64,000 nt of DNA from Gemmatimonas groenlandica (GTDB taxonomy: Bacteria > Gemmatimonadota > Gemmatimonadetes > Gemmatimonadales > Gemmatimonadaceae). The position numbers and the translations under genes were made by a program. How positions within the stretch are numbered: position 1 is the first letter of the stretch; every line of letters begins with the position of its first letter. Below are positions 14,665 through 23,703 of this stretch, in pieces. The DNA lies in the NCBI RefSeq assembly GCF_013004105.1, contig NZ_CP053085.1:2170001-2234000 (forward strand), in the 5' to 3' direction. Below the pieces are notes generated by a model. It saw nothing but the letters and a program-made list of their open reading frames with translations, was not told where the DNA came from and did not search any database.

Positions 14665-15771
14665 ATGGACCTCGCCCCCGCCGCTCCGCTCGCCCTACGC
14701 CGCATCGTGACGGTTGGTGTGGTAGTGATGGCGGTACGCGCCACCCTATTGGTGGCGGGGGCTATCCCACTGTTCGCTGGCGGGGCCCGCAACGGACTGA
14801 TCGCGACCGAGGTGGCGCGTCGTGGGGCGGAGATCATCGCCGCACTGCCCTTCATCGTCCTTACCGGATGGCTCGCCCTGCGCGACCCGCAGGTCCATCA
14901 TCGGTCGTGGCGCTGGTTCGCCGAGCGCATCGGTTGGGGATTGCTCATCTCGACGGTCCATCCGCTGGCCGTCTACTTCGTGATGAATGAGATGGCTCTT
15001 CGCTTCGGCGTTGGCACCGTATCACGACTGACTGCCCTCCAGCACGTGGCCATGGCGCTGCCCGATGCGTTCATGGTGTACGCGGCCGTGGTGCTGCTTA
15101 TCGATTGGATGCAGACGCAACAACGGCTGACAATGACGGCTCGACGCGCCGCAGATCTCCAGCGGGCAGCATCGACCGCGCAGATGCAAGCCCTTCGCGG
15201 ACGCCTCGAGCCGCACTTTCTGTACAATGCGCTCAACGCGATCGGCGACGCCGCGTACGAGAGCGCCGACAAGGCCAACATCCTGTTACGGCGTCTGGCG
15301 GGGCTGCTCAGAGCATCGTTGGCGGACCGAGAGACCCGCGACGTACCGCTCTCCCGCGAGCTCGATATTTTGCACGACTACGTCGAGCTGCAGCGCGAGC
15401 GATTCGGCGATCGCTTTTCGGTGACCGTCGAGGCCACGGAGGACGTGATGTCGTACCGCGTACCACCATTTCTCCTGCTACCGTTGGTGGAGAACGCGGT
15501 CCGTCACGGTGGGGCGGGCAGTCAGTCGGCGCATCCGGTCATCGTGCGCGCCGTGCATTGGCACGGCGCGCTCCACTTGATGGTCGAAGATCAGGGGAGC
15601 GCTGCGGAGTCCTCCCCGCGAGCGCCCGGCTTCGGCGTTGGGCTGGCCAGCACACGCGAGCGCCTGCAGCTGCTGTATGGATCGGCTGCGTCGGTGGAAG
15701 CAGGGCACGACGCCAACGGCGGATTTCGCGTTGACATCGCCATTCCTCTCACGGGGACCAACAATGATTAG
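14665..15771 (+). CDS. Sensor histidine kinase, LytS/YehU type
   Basis: A 368-residue membrane kinase. About four transmembrane helices fill residues 14-147, with no obvious periplasmic sensor domain, followed by a short coiled linker and a His_kinase domain (PF06580 type) with the phosphoacceptor in LEPHFLYNAL (H184). The HATPase region shows the N-box LVENAVRHG and the glycine-rich FGVGLASTRERLQLLYG. The stop overlaps the response regulator by eight bases, so the pair is translationally coupled and is almost certainly a cognate two-component system. The signal is unknown; relatives respond to membrane potential, pyruvate or envelope state. Confidence 0.93.
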   Translation: MDLAPAAPLALRRIVTVGVVVMAVRATLLVAGAIPLFAGGARNGLIATEVARRGAEIIAALPFIVLTGWLALRDPQVHHRSWRWFAERIGWGLLISTVHPLAVYFVMNEMALRFGVGTVSRLTALQHVAMALPDAFMVYAAVVLLIDWMQTQQRLTMTARRAADLQRAASTAQMQALRGRLEPHFLYNALNAIGDAAYESADKANILLRRLAGLLRASLADRETRDVPLSRELDILHDYVELQRERFGDRFSVTVEATEDVMSYRVPPFLLLPLVENAVRHGGAGSQSAHPVIVRAVHWHGALHLMVEDQGSAAESSPRAPGFGVGLASTRERLQLLYGSAASVEAGHDANGGFRVDIAIPLTGTNND

Positions 15772-16516
15772 TGCGTTAATTATCGATGACGAACCACCCG
15801 CCCGTCGCCAGCTTCGTCGTTTGCTGGCCGCGTGGTCAGACATTCAGGTCATCGGCGAAGCCGATTCGGCGGCGACGGCTGTGCAGCGCATCCGCGCGAG
15901 CCCGCCGGATCTGGTATTTCTCGACATCGCACTGCCGGATGGAACGGGCATCGACGTGGTCGAATCGGTCGGCCCGCTGCAAATGCCGCTCACTGTGTTT
16001 GTGACCGCCTATGATGTCCACGCCGTACAGGCCTTCGCGTTGTCGGCGCTGGACTACCTGCTCAAGCCCGTCGAGCCTGAGCGACTCCACGTCGCCCTGG
16101 AGCGGGCACGTGATCGTCTACGCGCGTCAGCACCGAATACACCCTCGGCCGAGACACTCTCGCAGCTCTCGGCGGTGCTTGGTGTCGCACCAACACGCTT
16201 TCGGCGGCGCTGGTTGGTGGATGACGGTCGACGACAGCTATTCGTGCGGACCGATACGATCGACTGGATCGAGGCCATTCGTCACGGTGTTGCCCTGTAC
16301 ATCGGCGCTGAACGGTACGAACTCCGACTCACATTGTCCCATGTGAAAGGGCAGTTGGATCCGGAGGACTTCGTACAGGTCAATCGCTCGCAGATCGTCA
16401 ATTTGCGCTCAGTGAAAGAGGTGCAGCCCTGGTCCCATGGCGACGCGCACCTGGTGCTGCAGAACGGGCGTCGCCTCAGCTGGTCGCGGCGGTTCCGTCG
16501 CGCGAGCGAACAGTAG
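15764..16516 (+). CDS. LytTR-family response regulator
   Basis: A 250-residue DNA-binding regulator that starts at the ATG 15764 inside the end of the kinase gene. Residues 1-115 are a CheY-like receiver with acidic pocket D8-D9-E10, phosphoacceptor D54 (LVFLDIALPDG) and conserved K101 (LLKPVEPERL). Residues about 145-247 are a LytTR domain (DTIDWIEAIRHGVALYI, later FVQVNRSQIVNLRSVKEV and the C-terminal LVLQNGRRLSWSRRFR). It should bind direct-repeat sites upstream of target genes. The ECF sigma gene starts 61 bases downstream on the same strand and is a possible target or read-through partner. Confidence 0.94.
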   Translation: MISALIIDDEPPARRQLRRLLAAWSDIQVIGEADSAATAVQRIRASPPDLVFLDIALPDGTGIDVVESVGPLQMPLTVFVTAYDVHAVQAFALSALDYLLKPVEPERLHVALERARDRLRASAPNTPSAETLSQLSAVLGVAPTRFRRRWLVDDGRRQLFVRTDTIDWIEAIRHGVALYIGAERYELRLTLSHVKGQLDPEDFVQVNRSQIVNLRSVKEVQPWSHGDAHLVLQNGRRLSWSRRFRRASEQ

Positions 16517-16577: not shown

Positions 16578-17135
16578 ATGACCGATTCTGGGCTCGAGCC
16601 GGACCTCGTGGTGCGCCTGCGAAGCGGAGACAGCGCTGCGTTCGAACGCTGTTTCCGTACGATGCACGCGCCGCTGGTCGCATTCGTCGCGCGGTACGTC
16701 GGCGACGTGGCACGCGCCGAAGACGTGGTACAGGAGCTCTTCTTTGCACTATGGCGGGATCGGGCAAAGCTGGAGATTACGGGCAGCTTGCGCGCCTATC
16801 TGTTTTCCGGAGCGCGGAATCGCGCGCTGAATGTGCGTCGCCGCGATCTGGTGGAGCGCGACTGGGAAGCAGACGAAGCGCATGCTGACGTGCGGGCCTT
16901 CCATCCGGCTCCCGAGACACCGGATGCCACGCTCGAAGCTGCAGAGCTGACGGCGCAGGTGGCGTCGGCCTTCGCGACCTTGCCCGAACGATGTCGCTTG
17001 GCGATGCACCTCCGGTGGCGCGAGGGATTGTCCTACGCCGAAATCGCTCAGGTATTGGGCATCGGGGTGAAAGGCGTCGAAAATCAGCTGGCACGCGGCC
17101 TCAAGGCACTCCGAGCGCGTCTCGCCGGCCCCTGA
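16578..17135 (+). CDS. ECF-family RNA polymerase sigma factor (FecI-like)
   Basis: A 185-residue sigma-70 family factor with only regions 2 and 4. Region 2 covers about residues 20-88 (DVARAEDVVQELFFALWRDR), and region 4 about 120-180 (LPERCRLAMHLRWREGLSYAEIA, then the recognition helix in KGVENQLARGLKALR). I use the ATG at 16578, preceded by GGGAG; a frame open back to 16437 overlaps the LytTR gene and lacks sigma features. It is followed by a FecR-type anti-sigma, an STN-TonB receptor and a DUF4249 lipoprotein, so it most likely responds to ligand binding at that receptor and directs transcription of the uptake genes. Confidence 0.94.
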   Translation: MTDSGLEPDLVVRLRSGDSAAFERCFRTMHAPLVAFVARYVGDVARAEDVVQELFFALWRDRAKLEITGSLRAYLFSGARNRALNVRRRDLVERDWEADEAHADVRAFHPAPETPDATLEAAELTAQVASAFATLPERCRLAMHLRWREGLSYAEIAQVLGIGVKGVENQLARGLKALRARLAGP

Positions 17136-17224
17136 TTGGCTCAAGACACCTCGGGATGAGGGGATTTCGCGATCTCCCGTGTCATGCTCCTGACCCCATC
17201 TGCACCCGCACGTCGCGATCCCCC

Positions 17225-18163
17225 ATGACTATCGACTCCACCTCGTCTACCTCCCCCGATGCCGATCTCCCCTCAGGGGCGTTCGGAGAGGCGGTGCGCG
17301 CCGCCGCCAGCGGATCGCCCACGGTGAGTGCGCTCGAGACGGAGCAGGCGTGGCATCGGCTGCGCGAGCGCATCGACCGTGAAATGCCAGTCGTAGTTGG
17401 CAGCATCTCATCGGCGACCAGTACTTCGCGTCGTCGCACAGAGTGGTGGCGCTTTGCGGCCGCGGCGCTGCTCGCCTTCGGCGCGGCCGGTGCATGGCGG
17501 CGTCTCGCCCCCACGCGCGATGCGGTGAGCGCCCCGCTGGGACAACGGGTCGCCGTCACGTTGCCAGACGGGAGTTCGATCACGCTGGCCGCGGGGAGTT
17601 CGGCATCGTGGATACGCGGCTTTCGCGGCGCGCAACGCGAGGTGACACTCGACGGCGAGGCGTATTTCGAGGTAGTGCACGACGGCATGAAGCCATTTCT
17701 CGTGCGCTCGCGGGATGGCATCGCACAGGATGTCGGCACGCGTTTCATCGTTCGTGCCTGGCCTGAGCTGCCGCAGGTGGAAGTGTTGGTGCAGGAAGGC
17801 GTCGTCGCGTTCACCGACAGTACCTCTGCCCGCACGACCGCTGTCGAACGGCGCGTGCAACTTCATGCGGGGCAGCGCGGGCAACTGGACCGGGATGGCC
17901 TTGTCACCGTCATGACCGCTGACAGCGCCGCATTCAGTTGGCTGACCGGCACGTTGGCGTTCGCCGATATGCCCGCACATGAGGCACTGGCCGTCATTGG
18001 CCGATGGTACGGCGTCGCCATTACAGTGCATCCTGCGCTCGCGCAGCGTCGGCTCACGGCCCGCTTTGTTAGTCAACCTTTACCGCAATTGCTGGATGCG
18101 CTCGCACTCGCGTTGGGCGCTTCCGTCGAACGTCGCGGAACGCAGATCACGCTGACTCCCTGA
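17225..18163 (+). CDS. FecR-type anti-sigma/sigma-regulator membrane protein
   Basis: A 312-residue inner-membrane protein. The N-terminal cytoplasmic part (1-70) would hold the ECF sigma factor, one transmembrane helix lies at about 72-92 (WWRFAAAALLAFGAAGAW), and the periplasmic part carries the FecR domain (LPDGSSITLAAGSSASW, EVTLDGEAYFEVVHDGMKPF, VGTRFIVRAW) plus a C-terminal STN-like DUF4974 segment (FADMPAHEALAVIGRWYGV). The ATG at 17225 was chosen because upstream extension overlaps the sigma gene. The gene stops three bases before the receptor gene. It transmits the state of the receptor to the sigma factor. Confidence 0.93.
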   Translation: MTIDSTSSTSPDADLPSGAFGEAVRAAASGSPTVSALETEQAWHRLRERIDREMPVVVGSISSATSTSRRRTEWWRFAAAALLAFGAAGAWRRLAPTRDAVSAPLGQRVAVTLPDGSSITLAAGSSASWIRGFRGAQREVTLDGEAYFEVVHDGMKPFLVRSRDGIAQDVGTRFIVRAWPELPQVEVLVQEGVVAFTDSTSARTTAVERRVQLHAGQRGQLDRDGLVTVMTADSAAFSWLTGTLAFADMPAHEALAVIGRWYGVAITVHPALAQRRLTARFVSQPLPQLLDALALALGASVERRGTQITLTP

Positions 18164-18166
18164 CCC

Positions 18167-20917
18167 ATGACATTTCGAATGGCCCTCACCCTCTGGCTAC
18201 TCGCCACAGGGAGCCCGCTGGCTGCGCAATCGCCATTGCCATCGCGAGCAGTCATACCGAGCACGCCAAGCGCATTCGTTGCACTCGACAGTGGCAGCAC
18301 GGCCCGTGGTGCTCTAATCACGCCGGTCACCGTAAACGTGCAGGATCGTCCGCTCGCACAGGTACTCGATGACATCACACGGCAAGCCCGGGTGTCGTAT
18401 GTCGCTGACCGTGCGCTGCCGGGCCTTGATCGCCGCGTGACGCTCGCGGTGACACAATTGTCCGCTCGCGAGGCACTCTTACACGTGGTGGCGGGTTCAC
18501 CGCTGCAGATCCTGGTTGGACCGACCGGTCAGCTTGTGCTGGCGCGCCGCACAAAGCCCTCGACGGCGCCAGACACTCCGGCACGTCGTGAAACACTGCG
18601 GCTATCGGGATTCATCCGCAGCGTGAGCTCCAACGAAGTCATACGCCACGCGGTCCTGCTGGTCGATGATGAAGCGACACGGCGAGAGAGTAATGAAGAG
18701 GGGTTCTATGTCCTGCTCCTCGAAGGTGGACTGCATCGTGTGCGGGTACGCGCCATCGGGTTTGCCCCGATGGACACGACGATCAATTTGATCAGCGCCA
18801 CCACGACCGATCTCGTGCTACGACCGCGTACGGTGGTGCTTTCCGCCATGCGCGTGCAAGCCACCAAAGCCGAGCGTGGCGATCTCGATTCCAGGCTCCC
18901 GGATATGAGCGTGACGCGGCTCGATCTGGCGATCGCGAAGCGCATACCTCCATTGCTGGGAGAAGTCGATCCCCTGCGCACCCTCACGCTACTGCCTGGA
19001 GTCGCCACCACCAGCGACGCGTCCACCGCGTTCAGTGTGCGCGGCGGCAGCGTCGACCAGAATCTCATCCTGCTGGACGAATCCACGATCTACAATCCGT
19101 CGCACATCCTTGGCTTTCTGTCCACCTTCAATGCCGATGCCGTCGACGATGTGACGCTGTACAAGGGCGCTATTCCTGCGAAGTATGGTGGCCGCCTGTC
19201 GAGTGTGGTGGACGTGAGACAGCGCGAAGGCAACGCACGGGAGTTCGCGGGCAACGCTTCGATTGGACTGCTCGCGAGCCGCGCCATCGTTGAAGGACCG
19301 CTCCCTTTCCACCGTGGCAGTTACATGGTGGCGGGCCGAAGGTCCTATGCAGATGCGTTTCTCCGCCTCGCCAACGACTCGACTATCAAAGATAACGCCG
19401 CCTACTTCTACGACGTGAATGCCAAGGTCAATATACGAATTGGTATGACCGGCTCCGTCATGCTGTCGACATACACGGGACGGGACAAGTTCACTCAGCC
19501 AAGCGAGAGCTTTGCGGTGGGGTGGGGGAACCGGTCTACGACGCTGCGCTGGAATCAGGCCTTCGGTCGACTTTTTTCGAAGATCGCCAGCACCAGAAGC
19601 GACTACGATTACCGTCTCGAATTCCGGCTTGCCCCCAGTGACTCGGCCCGATGGATCGCCGGTATTCATAGCAGCAATCTCAAGATTGACGAGACGCTCC
19701 GCCTCACGGATCACCAGACCCTCGAGTTCGGCGGTGAGATCATCGACCACGTGTTCCGACCGGGGGATGTGACACCGCGTGGCGACACCACGTTGATTCG
19801 GCGGCGCACGATCGAGCCGCGCTACGCGCTTGCCAGCGCGCTGTACCTCGGCCATGAGATCGAACACGGCACGCGCATCGGTATTCGGTACGGTGTGCGC
19901 TATGCCGCGTTCAGTCGTAACGGACCCATGACGCGCTATCGCTATACGAATAATGCGCCTGTGACCTACAACGGCGCACTCGGGCGCTACGAACCGGGGA
20001 CGTTGCTGGACAGCGTACGCATTACCGGTAGCCGCTCCCAATTTCGATACGACGGCTTTGAGCCGCGTGCCTCGATACGATTCACGCTCACCGAGGGCAG
20101 CAGTCTGAAGGCGAGCTACGCGCGTACGCAGCAGTTCCTCCAGCTGGTGTCGAACACGAACTCTCCGACACCGCTCGATGTGTGGGAGCCGGCCGGCGAG
20201 TTCATTCAACCGCAACAGGGGAATCAGTACGCGCTCGGCTACAGCAGCCGACGCGGCGCGTACGAGTTCACGGCTGAGACGTACTACAAAACGGCAGCGC
20301 ACGTCGTCGACTACATCGACGGTGCGGATGTCGTCTTGAACCCGCGACTCGAGACGCTGTTGGTGCAGGGTGAAGGGCGCGCGTACGGACTCGAGCTCTT
20401 TCTTCGGCGAAGCAGCGGTCGCGTGAGCGGCTGGGCCAGTTACACGCTCGCGCGCGCCGAGCAGCGCTTTCCCGTGCCACCGCGCGCCGGCGCCACGAGC
20501 GGCGGCGGTGTGAACGGTGGCGAGTGGTACGTCTCACCATTCGACAAGACCCACAATCTTTCGCTGGTCGGTGTGTATGCATGGAGGCCGAAGTGGACCG
20601 TGGGGTCGACCTTCATCTTCGCGACTGGACTTCCCACGACCCTACCGCAATCGCGGTATGTGATCGACGGCTTCCTGATTGCCGAGTATGGGTCTCGCAA
20701 CGGCGAGCGCCTACCGAATTACCATCGCCTGGACGTGAGCCTCACACGATCGCTGCGCCGCGGCGAGCTGCAGTTTGGCCTACTCAACGTGTACAACCGA
20801 TTCAATGCGCAGTCGTTGCGCGTGCGCCAGCAGGAGAAGAATGCCATGGTGGCCGAAGCGGTGCAGACATCGATCTTCGGCATCGTGCCGAGCATCAATT
20901 ACGTCTTCAAATTCTGA
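18167..20917 (+). CDS. TonB-dependent transducer receptor with STN domain
   Basis: A 916-residue outer-membrane receptor. Signal peptide about 1-21; STN/secretin-like signalling domain about 53-126 (NVQDRPLAQVLDDITRQA, VTQLSAREALLHVVAGSPL); carboxypeptidase-regulatory-like domain about 143-225; plug about 255-370 (LPGVATTSDASTAFSVRGGS, DQNLILLDESTIYNPSH, YGGRLSSVVDV); then the beta-barrel ending in the aromatic NYVFKF. The STN domain identifies it as a transducer that signals to the FecR protein upstream. The layout matches FecA-like surface signalling, although the regulatory and plug sequences look more like Bacteroidetes receptors. Ligand unknown: iron chelate, peptide and glycan are all possible. 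Confidence 0.94.
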   Translation: MTFRMALTLWLLATGSPLAAQSPLPSRAVIPSTPSAFVALDSGSTARGALITPVTVNVQDRPLAQVLDDITRQARVSYVADRALPGLDRRVTLAVTQLSAREALLHVVAGSPLQILVGPTGQLVLARRTKPSTAPDTPARRETLRLSGFIRSVSSNEVIRHAVLLVDDEATRRESNEEGFYVLLLEGGLHRVRVRAIGFAPMDTTINLISATTTDLVLRPRTVVLSAMRVQATKAERGDLDSRLPDMSVTRLDLAIAKRIPPLLGEVDPLRTLTLLPGVATTSDASTAFSVRGGSVDQNLILLDESTIYNPSHILGFLSTFNADAVDDVTLYKGAIPAKYGGRLSSVVDVRQREGNAREFAGNASIGLLASRAIVEGPLPFHRGSYMVAGRRSYADAFLRLANDSTIKDNAAYFYDVNAKVNIRIGMTGSVMLSTYTGRDKFTQPSESFAVGWGNRSTTLRWNQAFGRLFSKIASTRSDYDYRLEFRLAPSDSARWIAGIHSSNLKIDETLRLTDHQTLEFGGEIIDHVFRPGDVTPRGDTTLIRRRTIEPRYALASALYLGHEIEHGTRIGIRYGVRYAAFSRNGPMTRYRYTNNAPVTYNGALGRYEPGTLLDSVRITGSRSQFRYDGFEPRASIRFTLTEGSSLKASYARTQQFLQLVSNTNSPTPLDVWEPAGEFIQPQQGNQYALGYSSRRGAYEFTAETYYKTAAHVVDYIDGADVVLNPRLETLLVQGEGRAYGLELFLRRSSGRVSGWASYTLARAEQRFPVPPRAGATSGGGVNGGEWYVSPFDKTHNLSLVGVYAWRPKWTVGSTFIFATGLPTTLPQSRYVIDGFLIAEYGSRNGERLPNYHRLDVSLTRSLRRGELQFGLLNVYNRFNAQSLRVRQQEKNAMVAEAVQTSIFGIVPSINYVFKF

Positions 20918-20919
20918 TT

Positions 20920-21804
20920 ATGCCTGTCAACTCAACGCTGCGTGCGATGCGTGGGCTCTCCAGCGTACTCGTGCTCGCCACCCTAGGCGCCTGTGAGAAG
21001 GTCGTAGAGCTCGATGTGGCCGATGGTCCGGTTCGCCTCGTGGTGGAGGGGCGACTCGAGTCTCCTCTCGAACCCGCGAGCGTCACCCTGCTCGGCCGTC
21101 AATCGCTGCGCCTGACTACGACCTCGCCGTACTTCAGTAACAGCCCGCAGCCGCCCGCGCGTGGAGCGGTCGTGACGGTCCGCGATGATCTTGGTCGCGT
21201 GGTCGCGTTTCCGGAGTCGAGCACGCCAGGAACGTATCGAACCGACAGTCTGGTGGCGCGCGCTGGCCGCACGTACACATTGCGCATCGAGTGGCAAGGC
21301 GACCGTTACGAGGCCGTAGAGAGCTTGAGCAGTGTCGCGCCGATCGACTCGCTGTATTTCATGCCGCGCCCAAAGAAGGATCCGGCCATCGACGGGCTGC
21401 GCGCCACGATCGATTTGCGCGACCCGCCGGTCACGCGCAACTACTACTTATGGGATCAGTATGTGGACGGCGAGCGCCTCGTCTCCCCAGACACCGTGAT
21501 TCGCTATCGCGTGGTGACCAATGACGAATTCTATGAGGGACGACGCGTTCGAGCCTATCAGCCCTTCGATGGACGCGCGGTACGACGCCGGCAGGAGGTG
21601 CTCGTTCGACAGTACTCCATCTCCGAGGCGGTGTGGCGCTACTACGACGCGCTCAACCGTCAGGTGGACGGCGATGGGTCCCCGTTCGGCGTGCCGCCGT
21701 CGAGTGTGCGTGGGAACGTCGCCAATCTCACGTCACCGTCGAAGCCGGCGTTGGGATACTTCGTCGCGAGCGAGGTGTCGGAGCGACGTGCACGCGTGCC
21801 CTGA
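20920..21804 (+). CDS. DUF4249 family outer-membrane lipoprotein
   Basis: A 294-residue predicted lipoprotein with lipobox LGAC (C25), starting at the ATG 20920, two bases after the receptor stop. The sequence CEKVVELD followed by LVVEGRLESPLEPASVTLLG, then GAVVTVRDDLGRVVAF and GRTYTLRIEWQGDRYEAVE, is characteristic of DUF4249. Such proteins are encoded next to TonB receptors, mainly in Bacteroidetes, and probably cap the receptor or bind substrate, by analogy with SusD. It is the last gene of the sigma/anti-sigma/receptor unit. The frame stays open further upstream, but that extension overlaps the receptor gene in another frame and is not used. Confidence 0.88.
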   Translation: MPVNSTLRAMRGLSSVLVLATLGACEKVVELDVADGPVRLVVEGRLESPLEPASVTLLGRQSLRLTTTSPYFSNSPQPPARGAVVTVRDDLGRVVAFPESSTPGTYRTDSLVARAGRTYTLRIEWQGDRYEAVESLSSVAPIDSLYFMPRPKKDPAIDGLRATIDLRDPPVTRNYYLWDQYVDGERLVSPDTVIRYRVVTNDEFYEGRRVRAYQPFDGRAVRRRQEVLVRQYSISEAVWRYYDALNRQVDGDGSPFGVPPSSVRGNVANLTSPSKPALGYFVASEVSERRARVP

Positions 21805-22023: not shown

Positions 22024-23703
22024 TTACGGCGCCCACTCCACCTGCGGCGACGCATAAAAGTTGATCCCCAGCAGCCGCCACCGCGCGGCGTGCGTGGCGA
22101 TTCGCGTGCGAAACCCCTCCCAGCTGCGCGCCGCTTGCGCACTCCACGCCACCTCGGCCAGCGCCGGCAGGCGCGGCACCAATAGGTACTGTGCGCTGTT
22201 CAGATTCCTGACGGTTTCGCTCCACAACGGCGCTTCCACGCCGAGTATGGCCTGCTCACTGAGACCGGCCGAGTATGTGGCCGGATCCCAGTCGTACGCA
22301 GTGCGCAGCTCGATATACCCCGCCCAGCGTAGCCCCACTTCGGTGGCGGGCGTGTACTTCATGTCGAGATACGTGCGCGGTCCCGGTGACATGATGAGCT
22401 GGTTGCCCTGTTTGACCGCCAGCAGCGCGGTATCGCTACGCCACAACTGTGCAATGCTACCTTGGCGCAGGGTCGCCTTCCCCACTTCCTCCCACCCCAC
22501 CATCGTCTTGCCGTGCTTGTGCACGATGGCCTGGACACGTTCCACGAAGCGGGCGTACTGCGTGTGGTTCAGCACCTCCACTTCGTCGCCGCCGATGTGG
22601 AAGTACGGCCCCGGTGTTATGGAAGCGATCTCGCGCACCACATCGTTCACGAAGCGCCACGTGAGCGCCTTATCTGGGCACAGGGCGCTCCACCCCACCC
22701 GGATGCCGGTGTATACACCAGCTGACTGCGTACCCTCGCCATAAATATTCGGCGTGGGGCGACTGCATCCCAGCTGCGGATAGGCCGCGATAGCCGCATT
22801 GCTGTGCCCGGGCATATCGATTTCGGGTACGACCATGATGTGCCGTGCCGCCGCATAGCGCACAATCTCCGCGTAGTCGGCCTTGGTGTAGAAGCCGCCA
22901 GACGCGCCGCCCACTTCGCTGCTCCCACCCACCTGCGTCAACTTAGGCCAGCTCGCGATGGCGATACGCCACCCCTGATCGTCGGCGAGGTGCAGGTGCA
23001 AGCGATTGAATTTGTACAGCGCCATGAGGTCGATGTGCTGCTTCACTTCGTCCACCGTGAAGAAGTGCCGGGCGACGTCGAGCATCGAGCCGCGCCACGC
23101 GAAGCGCGGACTGTCGACGATCCGACCAGGCGGCACCGATACGGTGGGTGCGAGCCGCAGGGCACTCTGTTCCGCCTCAATGCCCCACGGCAGCAGTTGG
23201 CGCAGGGTCGCCACCCCGAAGAACACGCCAGCCGGCGTACGGGCCACGAGGCGGATGGTGTCCGCAGCGATGTCGAGCGTGTAGCCCTCGTCGCGTGCCG
23301 TCGGCGCGGTACCGACGGACGCGACGGCGCTCGTGTCTACGCGCAACAGCACAACATTCCCCGCACTCGGGGAGCCTCGCTTGAAACCCGACACCGGAAG
23401 CCGCAGCGCCGTCGACTTGCGCAGGATGCGCGCGAGGTACTCGCCGGTTCGGGTCAGTTCAGCGGGGCCGTCAGTGACCAGCTTCGTGTTCGCGGAGAAC
23501 ACGAACGGTTCACCGGCCGCCACGGTGACGTTGGCCGGCACCGGCACCACGCGGTGCGCGTCGAGTGTGGCGAGCGGCGGCGACGGCACCGGCTGCGATA
23601 CAGCTGGCGATTGTGCCGGCGCCTGCGCGGAAAGCGGTGCCGCAGTGGCGGCCAGAAGCAGCACGATAGCCGGCGCGACTATACCACGTCGTAAGTTGGA
23701 CAT
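22024..23703 (-). CDS. Secreted beta-N-acetylhexosaminidase, GH20 (second copy)
   Basis: A 559-residue exported GH20 enzyme, again expected to remove terminal HexNAc residues from oligosaccharides outside the cytoplasm. Signal peptide about 1-27 (ending LSAQ); a Pro/Ala linker; GH20b domain about 50-190; catalytic barrel about 198-540. Family motifs are intact: WRGSMLDVARHFF, NRLHLHLADDQGWRIAI, VPEIDMPGHSNA and the catalytic pair D373-E374 in FHIGGDEVE. It is a distant paralog of the enzyme at 201-1835 and carries the longer GEGTQSAG insertion typical of some chitobiase-like members. It stands alone, divergent from the sigma-54 regulator. Confidence 0.95.
   Translation of the reverse strand: MSNLRRGIVAPAIVLLLAATAAPLSAQAPAQSPAVSQPVPSPPLATLDAHRVVPVPANVTVAAGEPFVFSANTKLVTDGPAELTRTGEYLARILRKSTALRLPVSGFKRGSPSAGNVVLLRVDTSAVASVGTAPTARDEGYTLDIAADTIRLVARTPAGVFFGVATLRQLLPWGIEAEQSALRLAPTVSVPPGRIVDSPRFAWRGSMLDVARHFFTVDEVKQHIDLMALYKFNRLHLHLADDQGWRIAIASWPKLTQVGGSSEVGGASGGFYTKADYAEIVRYAAARHIMVVPEIDMPGHSNAAIAAYPQLGCSRPTPNIYGEGTQSAGVYTGIRVGWSALCPDKALTWRFVNDVVREIASITPGPYFHIGGDEVEVLNHTQYARFVERVQAIVHKHGKTMVGWEEVGKATLRQGSIAQLWRSDTALLAVKQGNQLIMSPGPRTYLDMKYTPATEVGLRWAGYIELRTAYDWDPATYSAGLSEQAILGVEAPLWSETVRNLNSAQYLLVPRLPALAEVAWSAQAARSWEGFRTRIATHAARWRLLGINFYASPQVEWAP

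Follow-up and report, generated by a model that had tools for sequence, protein, structure and literature searches.

A probable FecIR-type signalling operon with a TonB-dependent receptor and a DUF4249 lipoprotein in Gemmatimonas groenlandica

For FoxA/FoxR signalling, one study describes contact between STN-like domains, self-cleavage at a Gly-Thr (GT) pair, regulated proteolysis and sigma factor release (PMC11637429). Among TonB-dependent transporters with lipoprotein partners, two further studies report that BtuG acts as a lid (PMC10404256) and propose DUF4249 as the partner of the transporter BT2172 (PMC11003636). The pairing with BT2172 was the only setting in which our literature search met DUF4249. 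The same search found nothing joining Gemmatimonas, TonB-dependent and sigma factor, and the literature on FecR in Gemmatimonads appeared to be off-topic.

We analysed a 64,000-nucleotide stretch of the G. groenlandica genome (the window) containing four consecutive genes (Table 1) that likely form a FecI-FecR-FecA-like cell-surface-signalling operon, in which an outer-membrane receptor works with a DUF4249-family lipoprotein. The unit probably senses a nutrient at the surface and turns on its own uptake receptor. Open reading frames and profile matches agreed with the first-pass annotation, which had placed an ECF sigma factor, FecR, an STN/TonB receptor and a DUF4249 protein in that order. 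The joins of 2-3 bases that it gave downstream of the FecR gene are exact: the open reading frames are separated by 89 bases between the ECF and FecR genes, 3 between FecR and the receptor, and 2 between the receptor and the DUF4249 lipoprotein gene that directly follows it.

Table 1. Features of the four-gene unit, in positions of the window
Feature	Position	Strand	Evidence
FecI-type ECF sigma factor, 185 aa	16578-17135	+	TIGR02985, Sigma70_r2, r4_2
FecR-type anti-sigma factor, 312 aa	17225-18163	+	FecR PF04773, FecR_C PF16344
TonB-dependent receptor/transducer, 916 aa	18167-20917	+	Pfam domains, relatives
STN stretch of receptor (piece modelled)	18263-18586	+	AlphaFold2, Foldseek, sub-threshold Pfam STN
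DUF4249 lipoprotein, 294 aa, lipobox Cys25	20920-21804	+	PF14054, Cys25 invariance, model

Curated Pfam or NCBIfam cut-offs were passed by the sigma factor, FecR, FecR_C, plug, barrel and DUF4249 matches; STN fell below. The sigma factor scored 131.2 bits against TIGR02985 (cut-off 126.4), which classes it as FecI-type, and the putative anti-sigma factor scored 47.6 bits for the FecR domain and 37.9 bits for FecR_C, both above cut-off. Its Gly171-Thr172 belongs to a GT pair conserved in all 80 aligned FecR sequences; by analogy with FoxR, which lies outside the alignment, this pair would be the self-cleavage site. The candidate membrane segment of FecR (about residues 77-95) is only weakly hydrophobic, with a hydropathy of 1.18 and a slightly higher value, 1.23, in a periplasmic stretch.

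The receptor carries, in order, a signal peptide (assigned by eye), an STN stretch, a CarboxypepD_reg-like domain (28.2 bits, under the cut-off of 32.3), a plug (34.5 bits) and a barrel (48.5 bits), the last two above their Pfam cut-offs. The STN assignment was the part of the first-pass annotation that proved weaker than implied, as the Pfam model gave 19.8 bits with the whole receptor and 24.8-25.3 bits with the N-terminus alone (cut-off 28.4); the predicted fold spoke for it, as did a profile seeded with the window's own STN sequence. An AlphaFold2 model of 108 residues, built from 15 sequences, reached a pLDDT of 82.3, and its Foldseek matches included the signalling domain of PupB (TMt 0.72), the C-terminal domain of PupR (TMt 0.78), FpvA, FoxA, secretin N0 domains and an anti-sigma factor from Parabacteroides, as well as phage baseplate and DotD proteins. 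A single match had E <= 0.001, with PupB, FpvA and FoxA at about 0.005-0.015. From its predicted fold we take the stretch to be a true STN signalling domain. No solved structure was related to the receptor by sequence. A single in-frame TAG splits three receptor relatives (L032, 6523-6525; L047, 10121-10123; L142, 7585-7587), which could reflect decay, assembly error or recoding.

The lipoprotein scored 114.3 bits against DUF4249 (cut-off 28.5), its sole Pfam match at E <= 0.001, so that no SusD_RagB match was found at that threshold. The lipobox cysteine, Cys25, was invariant across 36 sequences, and a model built from these (pLDDT 86.6) placed mainly beta strands behind the lipobox. No solved relative was found by sequence, and structural comparison returned generic two-domain Ig/FnIII-like proteins at low Foldseek TM-scores (best Z 5.6); matches of this modelled fold are uninformative on the ligand.

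We compared the unit with relatives in both phyla. A scan with the receptor alignment gave 53 loci. The nearest (<=68% identity) bore the names Gemmatimonas or Gemmatimonadaceae, or simply 'bacterium'; Bacteroidota, among them Flavobacterium and Chitinophagales, followed at 30-44% identity and Ignavibacteriota at 28-30%. A receptor relative at E <= 1e-50 was present in 184 of 296 Bacteroidota genomes (best identity 44%), and nearly all Bacteroidota matches listed start near residue 141, past the STN domain. After removal of sequences with identical C-terminal 400 residues and of cores under 600 residues, 175 receptor matches gave a set of 151. In this set the ordered ECF-FecR-receptor-DUF4249 unit occurred at 18 distinct Gemmatimonadota loci including the window, with L098 and L045, which duplicate a single contig, taken as one locus. 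The first-pass annotation's call to look for the unit elsewhere in the phylum was thus answered by 17 further receptor loci, and because the ordered unit recurs there, the arrangement is more than chance. Among these 17, the L118 receptor spans two overlapping frames and L069 comes from a more distant receptor subfamily; two additional loci hold altered units, with FecR preceding the ECF gene (L094) or a TAG-interrupted receptor (L032).

Receptor and DUF4249 genes are paired well beyond these units. The DUF4249 gene followed 101 of the 107 receptors found through receptor searches, and two of the six misses lie at contig ends (L098, L120); 43 of the 151 rows entered through DUF4249 itself and are therefore uninformative on pairing. 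A receptor relative was present at all 59 fetched DUF4249 loci. DUF4249 started -20 to 60 bases from the receptor end in 139 of 144 DUF4249 rows, and a simple pattern found a lipobox in 114 of the 144. DUF4249 matches occurred in 84 of 298 sampled Gemmatimonadota genomes (80 over the curated cut-off) and in 30 of 119 genera; matches to the window's FecR at E <= 1e-12 occurred in 133 of the 298 genomes. SusD_RagB matches were found in 54 of 61 relatives, with 8 in the window's own genome; judged by such matches, SusD-type lipoproteins are common in Gemmatimonadota too. In the Bacteroidota sample, 63 of 69 receptor relatives stood in receptor-DUF4249 pairs without adjacent FecIR; this sample was drawn from the best receptor matches and by design took in the few that extended into the STN stretch, and its FecIR share is therefore no frequency.

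Presence of the STN domain, scored with the window-derived profile, followed the presence of FecIR closely within Gemmatimonadota. Every one of the 20 rows with adjacent FecIR carried STN (the L098/L045 unit supplies two of these), against 0 of the 57 rows scored as lacking FecIR. Three rows with too little upstream DNA were omitted from this table and two were assigned by hand: L129, whose ECF match is a long frame lacking FecR, to the rows without FecIR, and L094 to those with it. Independent pairs drawn across well-supported FastTree branches were concordant in five of five cases (sign test p 0.0625, the lowest value that five pairs allow). For both phyla together, STN was concordant in 7.2 of nine pairs on average (median p 0.039, range 0.008-0.29). 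The Pfam STN model at E <= 0.01 matched 13 of 27 FecIR-side N-termini; where FecIR was absent, it matched 0 of 27 among close Gemmatimonadota and 8 of 62 among Bacteroidota. Two receptors, L055 and L096, fall inside the FecIR-bearing receptor clade and lack STN, with no FecIR match in the DNA read; by eye, their signal peptides lie directly before the CarboxypepD_reg-like stretch. As L096 shares a MAG with a full unit, L093, it is a second copy there. In Bacteroidota the same profile found STN in 10 of 63 receptors without adjacent FecIR and left it undetected in 2 of 6 with FecIR. The coupling is thus clean in Gemmatimonadota and looser in Bacteroidota.

Seven DUF4249-paired Bacteroidota receptors (L175, L217, L218, L219, L221, L223 and L226) have STN and no FecIR match in the DNA read; their anti-sigma partner may therefore be located elsewhere. 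At two other loci FecR lies about 1.8 kb upstream (L176), or FecR and ECF genes lie downstream of DUF4249 (L177).

Gene trees were used to follow the descent of each component. All 49 close Gemmatimonadota receptors formed one clade in a FastTree tree of the 151 rows, as did the 24 sampled (100/100) in a more careful tree of 50 rows hand-chosen from the 151. Inside this clade, sequences from the window's family stood largely apart from those of other families in the class or order, and more distant Gemmatimonadota receptors with DUF4249 fell outside it in both trees. In a DUF4249 tree of 49 rows the same 24 Gemmatimonadota grouped together (95/84), beside the Bacteroidota group seen in the FastTree receptor tree (95/84); the window's receptor clade was split within Gemmatimonadaceae at weak support (85/38). 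The FecR tree, reduced from 96 to 80 rows, placed the window in a group of 16 (100/98) whose sister is the FecR of two other Gemmatimonadaceae receptors (92/91), and 41 Gemmatimonadota rows grouped together (91/82) with one, L246, just outside. The ECF tree was similar, except that three Bacteroidota rows lay among 38 of Gemmatimonadota.

The first-pass annotation had suggested lateral transfer from Bacteroidetes or a design shared by ancestry. For the array as a whole, transfer would mean that the window's lineage gained all four genes together, and some observations lean that way: the close Gemmatimonadota receptors nest among Bacteroidota rows, four-gene units exist in Bacteroidota too (L174, L178 and L214-L216), and GC falls to its lowest in the window over the receptor stretch (0.610-0.614 at 18001-21000; other 2-kb segments 0.619-0.686). 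A DUF4249 relative also occurred on 4 of 72,556 plasmid records, all from Bacteroidota, following a receptor-sized gene in the two that were read. Yet the receptor, DUF4249, FecR and ECF trees all hold the window within Gemmatimonadota, among many relatives, which is the outcome that the first-pass annotation had named as counting against its idea, and recent uptake of the array from Bacteroidetes is therefore rejected. The best Gemmatimonadota FecR outside any DUF4249 unit is closer to the window's FecR (151.7 bits, 44% identity) than the best from 198 Bacteroidota genomes (116.2 bits, 37%), and neither the receptor tree nor the FecR tree groups the Gemmatimonadota units with those of Bacteroidota. 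The dip in GC is slight and leaves transfer undecided. We regard whole-array transfer as very improbable.

An older event is another matter. In the receptor tree the Gemmatimonadota clade is placed among Bacteroidota, and a single clade of the 20 Bacteroidota rows was rejected (AU p 0.006), so that old transfer of the receptor-DUF4249 pair is plausible from the sequences. The pair could instead be an ancestral inheritance of the FCB group, shaped by ancient duplications with only some paralogues kept. Bacteroidota belong to this group and Gemmatimonadota have been placed in it; more distant receptor-DUF4249 pairs occur in Gemmatimonadota and Ignavibacteriota, and DUF4249 alone does not reject a single Bacteroidota clade (p 0.19). 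The receptor tree does reject one, however, and several supported branches part the Bacteroidota groups below the Gemmatimonadota clade in the careful tree; inheritance of this kind is a serious possibility that we hold tentatively, at somewhat under an even chance. On the tree evidence the FecIR module lies outside any such old pair transfer, because its nearest relatives are other Gemmatimonadota FecIR. Of the suggested transfer, what stands is thus a plausible old movement of the pair, with the signalling module excluded. The gene trees suggest that pair and module differ in history and that the array was most likely assembled within Gemmatimonadota, and they make the four-gene set an ordinary inherited component of its bacterial family.

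How often the module was joined to the pair is a separate question. A single clade of FecIR-bearing Gemmatimonadota receptors (12 of the 50 rows) was rejected (AU p 0.0014); therefore there were losses or several gains, either being possible. We lean slightly towards at least two captures within Gemmatimonadaceae, one in the clade that includes the window and one in the clade of L101, L109 and L045, over one capture followed by losses. FecR and ECF of the latter three each fall into a clade of their own, distinct from that of the window (99/99 and 100/98), and the sister of the window's FecIR is the FecIR of other receptors (L243, L244). Against this, one FecR clade uniting both groups of Gemmatimonadota units (19 rows, without L069) was not rejected (AU p 0.092).

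In the window's genome, a single contig of 5,179,092 bases, DUF4249 was matched once and FecR_C twice; a search with the FecR of the window gave three matches. A second FecR (L050, 6304-8092; contig C1 about 5174300-5176100) lies beside an ECF sigma gene on the other strand, with no receptor match within the 11 kb read, and L245, L247 and L255 are near relatives of L050 with the same divergent layout. A scan for sigma-70-like promoters found none; such a scan is uninformative for ECF promoters. Downstream, a GH20 beta-hexosaminidase gene (22024-23703) converges with the DUF4249 gene and, being on the opposite strand, was not used as a clue to the substrate.

Upstream, a histidine kinase (PF06580) and a LytTR response regulator are encoded at 14665-16516. 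Their plus-strand orientation and the short gap of 61 bp to the sigma gene would fit a two-component system in the same operon that regulates the unit. We consider this unlikely: of 30 genomes of the genus, the window's own was the only one with a kinase relative at E <= 1e-40; histidine kinase and response regulator profiles, applied to the DNA read for the relatives, found no such pair preceding the unit; and L109 carries one downstream instead. As a conserved neighbour of the unit, the two-component pair was rejected on the kinase count.

Direct support for a signalling operon comes from the gene order, the domains, the predicted STN fold, the lipobox, the receptor-DUF4249 pairing and the STN-FecIR coupling in Gemmatimonadota. 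Its working would follow known families, by analogy with which we assign surface location, a lid function, proteolysis, sigma release and autoinduction. The DUF4249 lipoprotein would most likely sit on the receptor as a ligand-binding lid, which is only a proposal, and ligand would pass through the TonB-powered barrel. Binding would alter the state of STN in the periplasm; membrane-anchored FecR would then be proteolysed, and the freed ECF sigma factor would transcribe the receptor and lipoprotein genes, giving substrate-induced uptake. As to origin, the receptor-DUF4249 pair would predate the sampled families of the class, and a FecIR module from within Gemmatimonadota would have joined it in Gemmatimonadaceae. 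We give little credence to a combined alternative in which closure of the DUF4249 lid on the loaded receptor signals to FecR through STN, so that surface capture rather than import triggers transcription, and in which FecIR and STN form a cassette, gained or lost as one, on a receptor-lid pair that would otherwise be constitutive.

The four-gene unit is real and ordinary within its family, and its value is modest: receptor-DUF4249 pairs spread beyond Bacteroidota, and STN-FecIR coupling is clean within Gemmatimonadota. TonB transporters of the lid type, which were once described as seemingly confined to Bacteroidetes, may be common in Gemmatimonadota; if DUF4249 is a lid, this kind of transport would be widespread in another phylum. 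Close receptors that either have both STN and FecIR or lack both offer a natural experiment in how signalling is added to a plain transporter.

Five Bacteroidota units (L174, L178, L214, L215 and L216) share the identical four genes in identical order, although they occupy separate branches in the receptor, FecR and ECF trees. PMC11003636 describes a receptor and a DUF4249 gene in a conserved operon, BT2172-BT2173 of Bacteroides thetaiotaomicron; the window, in another phylum, resembles this description and adds FecIR and STN. As in SusCD and BtuB-BtuG of Bacteroides, a TonB receptor has a lipoprotein partner that could be a lid (for BtuBG, PMC10404256). However, BtuG is a beta-propeller, and unlike SusCD the window has a DUF4249 protein with predicted beta-sandwich domains like Ig/FnIII pairs and no SusD match. 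Compared with FecIRA, FoxIRA and PupIRA of Pseudomonadota, the window differs in the CarboxypepD_reg-like stretch between STN and plug, in the DUF4249 lipoprotein gene that comes next, and in a FecR whose score of 64.6 lies below the FecR equivalog cut-off (385). Like those systems, it brings together a sigma factor, a FecR-type anti-sigma factor and an STN transducer, with the GT pair in FecR and the predicted STN fold in the receptor.
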